A stretch of DNA of 64,000 nucleotides from Rufibacter roseus (GTDB taxonomy: Bacteria; Bacteroidota; Bacteroidia; Cytophagales; Hymenobacteraceae), in the NCBI RefSeq assembly GCF_001647285.1, contig NZ_LRML01000010.1:62001-126000 (forward strand), in the 5' to 3' direction. Below are positions 57,061 to 60,060 of this stretch, piece by piece. Each line of letters opens with the position of its first letter. Within the stretch, counting starts at the first letter, position 1. The position numbers and the translations under genes are program-made. Under the pieces are notes generated by a model. That model worked only from the letters and a program-made list of their open reading frames with translations, made no database searches and had not been told where the DNA came from.

Positions 57061-57918
57061 CTAAACTTCCACCTCAAACCCCACCGATTGGCTTACCTCC
57101 ACCCACTGCGCAAACTCCTGCCCCAGGCTGTCCAGTTTAGCGGTGGCCATGTCATAGGCGTCTGAACCTAAGAGCAAGTGCACGGGTGGGTTTTCAGAAG
57201 TGGCGGTTTGGATGAGGGCGGCGGCTACTTTCTCGGGGTCGCCAGGTTGGTTGCCGTTAATCTGCTCCTGGTGCAGGGTCTGCATTTCACGGGCGTTGGC
57301 GTACTCGGCCATAGGAGACTGCGGCGTGACCAGTGAGCTTTCGGTTAAGAAGTTCGTGCGGATGTAACCCGGCATGACCACCGTTACCTTGATGTTGAAC
57401 GGTTCTACCTCCACGGCCAGTGCTTCGGTGAAACCGTTCACGGCAAACTTGGTGGCGCAGTAAACCCCGAAGCCCGGGAAGTTTCCGTTCATGCCCCCAA
57501 TGGACGAAATGTTGAAAATGTGGCCGCTGTTTTGGCGGCGCAGGTACGGCAGCGCTTTCCGGATCACGTTCAATGCCCCGAAGACGTTCACCTCAAAATT
57601 CTTCCTTGCCTCCTGGTCTGTGAGTTCTTCCAGGCTGCCCAAAAGGCCGTAGCCCGCGTTGTTCACCACCACGTCTACCCGCCCGAAGGTTTCCACGGTT
57701 TTGGCCAGGGCCTGCGCCACGCTTTCCTCGTTTGTCAAGTCCATAGCCAAAGGCAGAAACTGATTTGTAGAAAAAGCAACGGCTTGAGGGAGCTGTTTCA
57801 CGCTACGGGAGGTGGCGGCCACCGCATGCCCTTGCTGCAACAGCTGGCGGGTGAGAGATAGGCCAATGCCTTTAGAGGCGCCGGTAATGAACCACACTTT
57901 TTTGGTTTGATTTTCCAT
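57061..57918 (-). CDS. Short-chain dehydrogenase/reductase (AraC-regulated)
   Basis: About 285 residues from ATG 57918 (MENQTKKVWFITGASKGIG); the frame extends to 57972 but lacks family likeness before this. TGASKGIG (about 10-17), NNAGYG (about 83-88), Ser in ISSIGG and Y-C-A-T-K (about 150-154) are the SDR cofactor and catalytic residues; the C-terminus has PEKVAAALIQTATSENPPVHLLLG, typical of the ketoreductase-type subgroup widely paired with AraC regulators. It should reduce a carbonyl with NADP(H); substrate unknown. The AraC regulator gene lies upstream on the same strand, and a strong operator-promoter stands 190-255 nt before the ATG, leaving a long leader. Confidence 0.92.
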   Translation of the reverse strand: MENQTKKVWFITGASKGIGLSLTRQLLQQGHAVAATSRSVKQLPQAVAFSTNQFLPLAMDLTNEESVAQALAKTVETFGRVDVVVNNAGYGLLGSLEELTDQEARKNFEVNVFGALNVIRKALPYLRRQNSGHIFNISSIGGMNGNFPGFGVYCATKFAVNGFTEALAVEVEPFNIKVTVVMPGYIRTNFLTESSLVTPQSPMAEYANAREMQTLHQEQINGNQPGDPEKVAAALIQTATSENPPVHLLLGSDAYDMATAKLDSLGQEFAQWVEVSQSVGFEVEV

Positions 57919-57931
57919 GGTTTCCAAGGTT

Positions 57932-58066
57932 TTAAGTTTCGAGCATGTTTGCATTTGTCTTTTGCGCTGCAAAACGGCATATAAAGAACCTGCCTTCGTG
58001 CTTTTTTCTCACCATAGCGCTGCTATGCTGCTCAAAAACCACATCGGCAGAACCTTTCTCTGCCAT
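57932..58066 (-). CDS. Possible 44-residue ORF in the SDR leader
   Basis: Between the operator-promoter (58107) and the SDR start lies an open frame, ATG 58066 to TAA 57932, coding MAEKGSADVVFEQHSSAMVR plus 24 further residues, basic at the centre (VRKKHEGRFF) and with one Cys. It ends 14 nt before the SDR ATG. It has no Shine-Dalgarno, but few genes here have one. It may be a small protein, a leader peptide or chance sequence. Confidence 0.3.
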   Translation of the reverse strand: MAEKGSADVVFEQHSSAMVRKKHEGRFFICRFAAQKTNANMLET

Positions 58067-58106
58067 TTTTCGCTAGCAAAATCAAAATGTAAACAAGCTC
58101 TTAAAA

Positions 58107-58173
58107 CAAAGGTAGGGCAGGGGCGGACGGCGGTGTTTGCGCCTATCAAACCATCACTTGCAAAAATCAAACA
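58107..58173 (-). promoter_or_regulatory. AraC-type operator and promoter of the SDR gene
   Basis: On the minus strand: TGTTTGA, 13 nt, TGGTTTGATA (58144-58173; the two TTTGA copies are 21 nt apart), then 29 nt later TACCTTTG (58107-58114), a perfect -7 box. The same motif at the same spacing stands before the Atu4866 gene (59994-60060). The distal half-site overlaps the stop codon of the AraC gene itself (58167). Confidence 0.75.
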
Positions 58174-59060
58174 TGCCGGAACTGCGAGGGCGGCAACGAG
58201 GTGTGCTTCTTGAAGAAATTATTGAAATGCGCGGGTTCTTCAAAGCCCAGGCTGTAGCCAATCTCCGAGATGTTCCAGTCAGTGTGCTTGAGCAGAGCCA
58301 TGGCCTCGCTCACTAGTCGCGACGAAATAAGCTCCGTAGTGGTTTTGCCAGTGGTTTTCTTGATGGCGCGGTTCAGGTGGTTCACGTGCACTGCCAGCTG
58401 CTCGGCAAAGTCTTTGGCTGATCGCAGCTGGAACCGCTGGCCAGGTGATTCAATCGGGAACTGGCGCTCCAGCAACTCACTGAACACGGCGGTAATACGG
58501 GCATTGGCATCTGGGTGTTCATACAGTACTTCGGCCGGTTGGCTCTTCAGGGCGAAGTGCGTCATCTCGGTCACGTAATTGCGCAGCAGGTCGTACTTAT
58601 ACAGGTAGTCAGAACTGATCTCCGACAGCATCTTCTCAAAAATTGCCGTCACCTGTTGCTCCTGCTCCTCATTTAAAGGGTAAAACGGTTTTCCGCCCAA
58701 GGCGAACATAGGCAAATCCTGCAGGCTTCCCCGTATCTTCTCAGTGAAAAAAGCCTCCGTGAAAATGCAGAAATACCCGCTGGGCTCCCCAGAAACCGCC
58801 TCCCAAGTGTACGGCACCTGCGGATTGAAAAACATGAGCGTTGTGCCTTTTACCTCCACGCTTCTGTCAGCGTAATGGTACCGGAAGTGCCCCCTGATCA
58901 GGGAGATTTTGTAGAAATCGCGGCGGCTGTAATTGGCGGGGGTAAGGGCGCAATCTTCTAGCCGGAATACATTAAAATGCCCAAGGTCTTTCTTCAGGTT
59001 TTCGGGAAGTCCCTTGAATTTGTGCTGGTAAAATTCTTCTAAAGTCTCTGTAGGTGCCAT
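58167..59060 (-). CDS. AraC-family regulator controlling the SDR and Atu4866 genes
   Basis: 297 residues. An N-terminal cupin-like domain (about 30-160: FRYHYADRSVEVKGTTLMFFNPQVPYTWEAVSG) senses a ligand; the C-terminal 100 residues are a double HTH (FAEQLAVHVNHLNRAIKKTTGKTTTELIS, then WNISEIGYSLGFEEPAHFNNFFKKHTSLPPSQFRHV, the AraC signature). Two matching 30-bp motifs with half-sites 21 nt apart, one overlapping this gene's own 3' end and one upstream of the Atu4866 gene, define its likely regulon. No copy of that motif stands before the regulator itself. Confidence 0.94.
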   Translation of the reverse strand: MAPTETLEEFYQHKFKGLPENLKKDLGHFNVFRLEDCALTPANYSRRDFYKISLIRGHFRYHYADRSVEVKGTTLMFFNPQVPYTWEAVSGEPSGYFCIFTEAFFTEKIRGSLQDLPMFALGGKPFYPLNEEQEQQVTAIFEKMLSEISSDYLYKYDLLRNYVTEMTHFALKSQPAEVLYEHPDANARITAVFSELLERQFPIESPGQRFQLRSAKDFAEQLAVHVNHLNRAIKKTTGKTTTELISSRLVSEAMALLKHTDWNISEIGYSLGFEEPAHFNNFFKKHTSLPPSQFRHV

Positions 59061-59098
59061 GATGGAAGATAGGTGATTTCAGGGGATCTGTTTGTTAT

Positions 59099-59134
59099 GT
59101 TTTCGGCCTGTTTTCTGAAAAGCAGACCGAAAAC
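59099..59134. repeat. Nested palindrome family, copy 16
   Basis: GTTTTCGGCCTG and CAGACCGAAAAC pair with one mismatch around TTTTCTGAAAAG, 39 nt 5' of the AraC gene. Confidence 0.7.
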
Positions 59135-59435
59135 TCTTTTCTAGGTCAGTCCTTTTCTCAAATATTGTGCACGCATTTCGTCCCCCTTTGAAGGCTCGGG
59201 ATGATTACTCGTGCAGATTAGGTATTCCCGAGAATCGTTTTCTTGCTCTTTTAGTAGTTGTTATTGGTTCTTCTGATGCCCTTGTCATCCCCCTACCCCC
59301 TTCAAAGGGGGACGATCGGGTATCGTCATATTAGTAAACTTGCCGAAGGGAATGAGCCGCACTTGCCTACGCTGCTTAGAAAGGCACGGATTTGCTTCCG
59401 CGCCATAGAGGGCAGCGCATTTGATCAACAAGAGC

Positions 59436-59486
59436 CGCGGATTGCAAATCCGCAGGTATTTAAGTTCGGGATTGCAAATCCCGAAC
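59436..59486. repeat. Two adjacent xxGATTGCAAATCxx hairpins
   Basis: GCGGATTGCAAATCCGC (59436-59452) and TTCGGGATTGCAAATCCCGAA (59465-59485) share the centre GATTGCAAATC and differ in their flanks, which are complementary within each hairpin. A degenerate nested palindrome (tctgtttttaacctgctttc, 59536) follows. Confidence 0.7.
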
Positions 59487-59690
59487 AGCTTGTCCAAACA
59501 GCTGGGGCTCGAGCAGCTTATTATTCTGAAGTTCTGTTTTTAACCTGCTTTCAAGAAACTAGTGCTTCTCTAATTTAATTCTTAGAAGAATCGAACAGGA
59601 GTTCAGACTGACTTTTCTTATCCTCTTACAATTTCTAATTCTTAATTTCTAATTTTTAATTTGAAAGAGCACCAGCCCCAAAACAGTAAA

Positions 59691-59939
59691 CTACTGCTCT
59701 TCCCGATATAGCACCATTCCGGCGTGGTAGAGAATGCCGTCTTTGAAATCACCGTCGGCGGTGAAGCCGGTGTCATCTTGGTAGTCTATGTGGTCTCCGG
59801 TGAGGGTATAAGAGCCTTGGTAGGCGCTTTGGCGGGAGCCGCGGGCTTCGTCGTAGCGGCCGTTGGGCAGCAATTCGTGCCGAATGTAACCGTCGGCGGT
59901 GACCCACATGCCCACGTAGGGGTGTGCTTCTTCTTTCAT
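59691..59939 (-). CDS. Atu4866-domain protein
   Basis: 82 residues, full length for the family. HPYVGMWVTADGYIRHELLPNGRYDEARGSRQSAYQGSYTLTGDHIDYQDDTGFTADGDF (quoted in parts: HPYVGMWVTADGYIRHELL and GSYTLTGDHIDYQDDTG) is the Atu4866 beta-sandwich pattern. Small, soluble, no known enzyme activity. The AraC-type operator and a -7 box lie 55-120 nt upstream, so it belongs to the AraC regulon together with the SDR gene; its short leader contrasts with the SDR's long one. Confidence 0.9.
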   Translation of the reverse strand: MKEEAHPYVGMWVTADGYIRHELLPNGRYDEARGSRQSAYQGSYTLTGDHIDYQDDTGFTADGDFKDGILYHAGMVLYREEQ

Positions 59940-59993
59940 AATCTTGTCTTTAATTGCCTGGCGAGAATGAATTCTTTCCGTATTTCCTGATTA

Positions 59994-60060
59994 CAAAAGT
60001 AGAAGGAGAGAAGGCGAAGGTGTTTGCCTGTATCAAACCATTGCTTGCAAAATTCAAACA
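59994..60060 (-). promoter_or_regulatory. AraC-type operator and promoter of the Atu4866 gene
   Basis: On the minus strand TGTTTGA, 13 nt, TGGTTTGATA (60031-60060) and, 29 nt downstream, TACTTTTG (59994-60001). 27 of 30 motif bases and the spacing are identical to the SDR operator; GCAAACACC occupies the same place in both spacers. Confidence 0.75.

Follow-up and report, generated by a model that had tools for sequence, protein, structure and literature searches.

An AraC-type regulator with a putative direct-repeat operator at its own stop codon and two predicted target promoters in Rufibacter roseus

In the window, which is the whole stretch of 64,000 nucleotides of Rufibacter roseus DNA that was analysed, three genes follow each other on the minus strand in the order Atu4866-domain gene, araC and SDR-family oxidoreductase gene (Table 1), and the Pfam matches agree with the identities that a preliminary description had given them. 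The regulator carries the two-HTH C-terminal DNA-binding domain of the AraC/XylS proteins (PF12833, 5.1e-19; PF00165, 4e-10; both above the cut-off) and the N-terminal ligand-binding/dimerisation domain (PF02311, 29.5 bits against a cut-off of 21.1), and its nearest named relatives, with 92-93% identity, belong to Rufibacter immobilis, R. ruber and R. sediminis. It is a member of the AraC/XylS family and not the arabinose regulator, whose equivalog model NF007860 was ruled out (39.5 against a cut-off of 208); the best NCBIfam match, the HpaA regulator (TIGR02297), also fails its cut-off (65.2 against 274.65). The SDR protein passes the curated cut-off of NCBIfam NF004824 (PRK06180.1; 310.6 against 298) and its top PDB match by sequence is 3m1a, a putative dehydrogenase. 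The Atu4866 protein scores 145.2 with PF11512, for which the gathering cut-off is 25, and matches PDB 2jmb at 6.9e-34.

The preliminary description had placed a pair of almost identical minus-strand sites before the two outer genes, and direct reading together with a pattern search located them at 58173-58144 and 60060-60031; 27 of the 30 bases are identical, and the differences are confined to site positions 8, 18 and 19. The geometry claimed for them also stood: in both sites the distance from TTTGA to TTTGA is 21 nt, GCAAACACC occupies spacer positions 4-12, and exactly 29 nt separate the site from a -7 box, while the stop codon of araC (TGA, 58169-58167) is formed by positions 5-7 of the site before the SDR gene. 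The operator itself was retained and its 30-bp extent was not, since the conserved part runs from position 2 to 37 and takes in the GCAA formerly assigned to the spacer. The sequence TAnnTTTG is given as the sigma-A -7 consensus of Flavobacterium psychrophilum in PMC9723704.

Table 1. Features of the araC locus, in window coordinates
Feature	Position	Strand	Basis
Atu4866-domain gene, predicted target 2, 82 aa	59691-59939	-	PF11512, 8e-43
AraC-type regulator gene, 297 aa	58167-59060	-	PF12833, PF00165, PF02311
SDR-family oxidoreductase gene, predicted target 1, 285 aa from ATG at 57918	57061-57918	-	PF00106, 3.6e-51
Hairpin-forming dispersed repeat, 160 nt, predicted 5' untranslated leader of SDR	57945-58104	-	fold z -6.55
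-7 box of SDR promoter, TACCTTTG	58107-58114	-	read directly; spacing fixed in relatives
Operator repeat I2 (promoter-proximal) of SDR site, GTTTGATAGGCGCAA	58137-58151	-	consensus and 21-bp period
Operator repeat I1 (promoter-distal) of SDR site, GTTTGATTTTTGCAA	58158-58172	-	holds last codon (Val) and TGA of araC
-7 box of Atu4866 promoter, TACTTTTG	59994-60001	-	read directly
Operator repeat I2 of Atu4866 site, GTTTGATACAGGCAA	60024-60038	-	reading and repeat consensus
Operator repeat I1 of Atu4866 site, GTTTGAATTTTGCAA	60045-60059	-	reading and repeat consensus

The half-site pattern (up to 3 mismatches) matched the window twice, both times exactly, against a mean of 0.23 matches in shuffled windows, with two matches in 1 of 100 shuffles. 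Extended to the full genome, this loose pattern gave 23 matches and its reversed control 25; these loose matches are thus noise, and a stricter pattern was therefore adopted. Exact half-site matches were limited to the two window sites, and the three genome matches with 2 mismatches were devoid of the GCAAG spacer. A composite pattern, which combines the half-sites with a GNAA block and a -7 box and tolerates up to 3 mismatches in its 24 fixed bases, recovered the two window sites and no third one from the 5.1-Mb genome, so that the motif search of the same genome proposed in the preliminary description yielded no further comparable site.

When applied to 297 genomes, the composite pattern (up to 3 mismatches) had matches in 65, and the reversed pattern gave a single match in the same genomes, in G105. 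The regions round the matches outside the window genome were retrieved (mostly +/-4 kb) and 85 sites were found again; since these loci (L073-L153) were picked by the motif, they were left out of the unbiased rates given below. An araC homologue ends in the identical register, with its TGA at site positions 5-7, in 53 of the 85 sites and 5-29 nt before the site in another 11; no araC homologue ends near the remaining 21, which include three Atu4866 copies as well as sites before araC itself or before SDR operons ending in araC (L074, L078, L082, L088). Occurrence of the motif at many loci without the AraC gene was one finding that would have spoken against the preliminary description, and the outcome was mainly favourable, as 64 of the 85 sites lie at, or at most 29 nt behind, araC. 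Six sites have no araC homologue in the retrieved stretch (L094, L105, L108, L116, L127, L132) and may be targets in trans or chance matches. At L094 (G023:C3:2475652-2475718) an SDR gene carries a site of its own, and the surrounding 4 kb or so contain no araC homologue; the best-matching araC of that genome is about 0.49 Mb away, and this SDR gene is a possible second target in trans. When the -7 box was left free to lie 18-48 nt downstream, it was found at 32 nt in 27 of the 30 exact sites of 197 genomes and at 31 nt in the other 3, and the reversed control gave 0 matches.

The association was also analysed from the side of the protein. Using the AraC protein alone, 80 named loci (L173-L252), the best 80 of 545 candidates, were collected, mostly from Pedobacter, Mucilaginibacter, Chitinophaga, Dyadobacter, Larkinella, Flavobacterium and Rufibacter; many of these loci are related, hence the counts that follow are not independent. 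A tandem site is present somewhere in 79 of the 80. In 60 it covers the stop codon of araC, always in one register, and in 8 it follows the stop at 7-315 nt. There is no site at or behind the stop in 12, of which 11 have the tandem elsewhere in the locus: before araC in 8, before an SDR gene in 2 and in one (L198) at a place that was left unassigned. The locus without a tandem, L231, ends 367 nt behind araC, and among 17 matches upstream of araC those of L231 and L252 are a single half-site and not a tandem. With up to 3 mismatches a site was found near the stop in 65 of the 80 loci; with up to 4 there are 68 sites at or behind the stop, and in these the -7 box follows the 27-bp core at 32 nt in 60, at 31 nt in 7 and is absent in 1. 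Markov-1 resamples of the same stretches (80 loci x 20) gave no site match, and together with the reversed-pattern controls they led us to reject a chance origin of the sites. Among more remote proteins, eight distant AraC loci (25-32% identity) had no site even at 4 mismatches, and four homologues with 47-50% identity (L027, L028, L029, L169) had none near the stop (7-10 mismatches); other araC homologues at about 47-50% identity do carry it.

Alignment of the 68 sites revealed the architecture of the operator: GTTTGANNNNNGYAA occurs twice in direct orientation, with a period of 21 bp, and both copies stand before the -7 box. The consensus reads GTTTGAATTTyGyAA at positions 2-16 and GTTTGAwtnncGyAA at positions 23-37; a weakly conserved stretch follows, and then TAnnTTTG at positions 60-67. 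The repeats match each other at a shift of 21 with 17.8 bits, the next best value among shifts 8-44 being 1.4, and since no other shift brings them together, GCAAACACC contains the latter half of the proximal repeat, its presumed second contact block. No separate -33 element is conserved between I2 and the box, where columns 38-59 carry at most 0.58 bit; from the spacing, the second block of the proximal repeat would sit about where such an element is expected.

The overlap with the stop codon is widespread in this AraC subfamily and not peculiar to the window. In all 60 overlapping cases araC ends in Val-TGA; the 20 non-overlapping araC genes end in TAA (12), TGA (5) or TAG (3), and the 103 SDR matches of the same loci in TAA (75), TAG (16) or TGA (12). 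In four of the five non-overlapping genes with TGA (L190, L191, L226, L230) a vestigial GTTTGATTT or GTTTGAATT, left from the first half-site, is present at the araC stop; in these loci the tandem at the stop is degraded and an intact one lies before araC or an SDR gene. Because Val-TGA is invariable in the overlaps, the stops are mixed elsewhere, and vestiges accompany four of the five remaining TGA codons, the stop codon of the regulator appears to be fixed by the operator. The subfamily would thus offer a clean case in which the same bases are under protein-coding and operator constraint, with the stop of the regulator held as TGA.

With respect to the targets, the gene behind the site was called an SDR in 60 of the 85 motif-found sites. 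Among the other genes, ten were inspected: three encode aldo/keto reductases (L091, L122 and L128), two [2Fe-2S] proteins and two hexapeptide-repeat proteins, and the remaining three an MFS transporter, a metallo-beta-lactamase-fold protein and a protein of Epimerase/NmrA type. The [2Fe-2S] proteins preceded by a site at L106 and L108 have the domains Fer2 and Fer2_2. The reductase and [2Fe-2S] targets hint at carbonyl stress as a common theme. In E. coli, the AraC-family regulator YqhC activates the neighbouring carbonyl reductases YqhD/DkgA, and the system of the window resembles it in that an AraC-family regulator adjoins a reductase gene. The second predicted target, Atu4866, is uncommon: of 148 genomes, 12 have it, counting that of the window. 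It lies without a site of its own behind an operator-controlled SDR gene in L073, L076, L078, L082, L115, L178, L188, L201 and L252; this arrangement in other genera fits with a co-regulation by the Rufibacter copy. Only in Rufibacter, in 4 of 16 genomes of the genus (the window, G001, G005 and G010), was an Atu4866 gene seen that lies upstream of araC and is preceded by a separate operator at the same spacing. In five of the 12 genomes with Atu4866 (G094, G105, G110, G225 and G231), a scan of the 1.5-kb flanks of the gene at up to 3 mismatches found no such site.

The DNA itself shows the sites, how they are built from repeats, their spacing and conservation, and their linkage to araC, and these features support, as a prediction, the set of regulator, site, promoter geometry and two targets put forward in the preliminary description. 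We propose, with a probability of roughly 0.87, that a dimer of the AraC protein binds the direct repeats of GTTTGANNNNNGYAA, replaces the -33 contact and activates the SDR and Atu4866 genes. The two repeats, 21 bp or two helical turns apart, would be contacted by the dimer on one face of the DNA. I2 would end about at the expected -33 element, with TAnnTTTG at a fixed 31-32 nt behind the 27-bp core, and from this position and distance it follows that the regulator could replace the missing -33 contact and recruit RNA polymerase. The activation suggested by this geometry would be of class II, as at araI1-I2 of E. coli; the same geometry could, less probably, serve repression. In the window, the SDR reductase and the Atu4866-domain protein would be co-induced, and the trigger would presumably be a small, perhaps carbonyl-type, ligand held in the AraC_binding domain. 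All that concerns binding, dimerisation on the DNA, activation, the inducer and the role in the cell is prediction from this model.

Which protein recognises the motif can be approached through covariation. In 133 of 157 araC genes (site with up to 6 mismatches; motif-chosen and protein-chosen loci mixed), the distance between sites tracks that between the HTH domains of the neighbouring AraC proteins once the N-terminal distance is controlled for (partial Mantel r 0.27, 0 of 999 permutations), and in the reverse test, site against N-terminal domain with the HTH constant, r was 0.04 (146 of 999). Of the 50 pairs of protein and site columns with the highest mutual information, 12% involve the HTH, no enrichment over the expected 25%, which speaks against a simple residue code. 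The covariation of the site with the HTH and not with the N-terminal domain speaks against a different transcription factor binding the motif with araC as a mere neighbour. That reading could account for the six motif-found sites with no araC homologue in the retrieved stretch; we consider it very improbable, given that the tandem is kept beside araC at loci with no SDR match (e.g. L190, L223 and L227), is missing from the eight distant AraC loci, and occurs just 1-3 times in each of 10 whole genomes chosen from the 80. Even less credence can be given to the idea that the two window sites are a recently duplicated fragment devoid of function. Their identity at 27 of 30 positions would be expected from it; the flanks of the two copies, however, differ outside the operator and the -7 box, and phylogenetic footprinting contradicts it, because the copy before Atu4866 is kept in the four Rufibacter genomes (0-1 mismatch) with the 32-nt spacing while the flanking DNA differs.

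A possible, if on balance unlikely, alternative concerns the mode of action: the regulator could be mainly a repressor or a two-state switch, in which the dimer without ligand occupies one of the tandem repeats and a remote half-site, forming a loop, and moves with ligand to I1-I2, as in the ara system of E. coli. Supporting this idea, a single half-site (up to 1 mismatch), typically GTTTGAATTTTGTAACTTTG, is fused to the -7 region of araC in 58 of the 80 protein-found loci against a shuffle expectation of 0.92, a count that includes L200, scanned over too long a stretch, and a few start codons that are off by a few bases; in 44 of the 58 the half-site lies at exactly -24 from the start codon. 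In most loci its GTAA is common with the araC -7 box, TAACTTTG. The ATG usually stands 4 nt behind this box. The arrangement suggests that in these loci the araC mRNA would be leaderless and autoregulated. In a wider scan, an upstream tandem was present in 3 of 61 loci with the half-site and in 12 of 19 without it, hence the two elements are nearly exclusive. In the ten whole genomes, nine composites of half-site and -7 box (up to 2 mismatches) were found, spread over 7 genomes; eight of them precede a tandem site by 896-929 bp, a distance that fits with both elements lying at opposite ends of one araC gene. Against the switch, the half-site is missing from the araC promoters of three named Rufibacter loci and from the window, where the 300 nt upstream of araC (up to 2 mismatches) hold just a weak 2-mismatch match at -247; moreover, the distances cluster at 921 and 930 bp, which differ by 9 and not by one helical turn. 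With two clusters, helical phasing of the loop was uninformative and was discarded as evidence. A more elaborate version, which we hold to be doubtful, is that in the usual form of the module the araC gene is bracketed, about 0.92 kb apart, by the half-site fused to its -7 box in front and by I1-I2 at the stop codon behind; uninduced AraC would bridge both and enclose its gene in a repression loop, ligand would shift it to I1-I2 and turn the reductase on, and in Rufibacter the half-site in front would have disappeared and a further I1-I2 pair would have arisen before Atu4866. If this were true, Rufibacter would have turned a one-operon switch into a two-promoter regulon.

Returning to direct activation by the AraC dimer, in E. 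coli araI1-I2 the half-site is of 17 bp, the period is 21 bp and the proximal part overlaps the -35 region. The operator described here likewise has direct repeats with a 21-bp period at a fixed spot upstream of a core promoter without a -33 element. Both systems have two adjacent half-sites and an AraC-family regulator, and recruitment of polymerase by the proximal half-site is what we infer here. In contrast to E. coli, the half-site sequence is different, the -7 box is of Bacteroidota type, regulator and target lie in tandem with the operator within the stop codon of the regulator, and no araO-type site was found in the window. For E. coli AraC, activation from I1/I2 and an O2-I1 loop model are described in PMC4760080 and PMC6018408. 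By analogy with araI1-I2, tandem-repeat inducer sites have been proposed for the AraC-type OnfD of Rhizobium tropici, with a further repeat inside a neighbouring gene; unlike the window system, OnfD is rhizobial and controls nodulation genes, and the accessible part of that report does not mention an overlap with a stop codon (PMC7499043). In a literature search of titles and abstract openings, with thin coverage of subscription journals, neither this module nor an AraC operator on the stop codon of its regulator nor the fused half-site was described among the matches listed. The name Atu4866 came up in one paper, a single time. Apparently new, though not proven to be so, are the definition of the operator from sequence in several Bacteroidota genera, its overlap with the stop codon and the fusion of a half-site to the araC -7 region. 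They would provide a sequence-defined operator, a promoter geometry and a likely autoregulatory site for an AraC subfamily of several Bacteroidota genera, found mostly together with reductase genes (SDR, aldo/keto reductase and others). Small regulons could thus be called from sequence in genomes whose AraC sites are poorly known, and short inducible elements for use in Bacteroidota might be derived from the operator.

The SDR promoter and its start codon are separated by a dispersed repeat (Table 1), present in the window genome and in R. ruber (G001) and absent from the same place in G005 and G010. Seven matches to it occur in the window genome, compared with at least 41 in G001 and at least 42 in G009. 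Window and R. ruber are 100% identical over the 100-nt bins 58100-57901, and the adjoining bins 93% and 91%. The repeat is perhaps MITE/REP-like, and it could uncouple the level of the SDR protein from the promoter; given its position before the SDR start, any measurement of SDR must allow for it.

A sister type of site, roughly ATTTGANTTTTGCAAA with a proximal GGATTGAT...GCAAACA, was observed at L026, L153, L165-L167, L236, L300 and L303. In the first six of these loci it adjoins a paralogous AraC gene or precedes an SDR gene with about 30% identity, and it probably represents a second specificity group.
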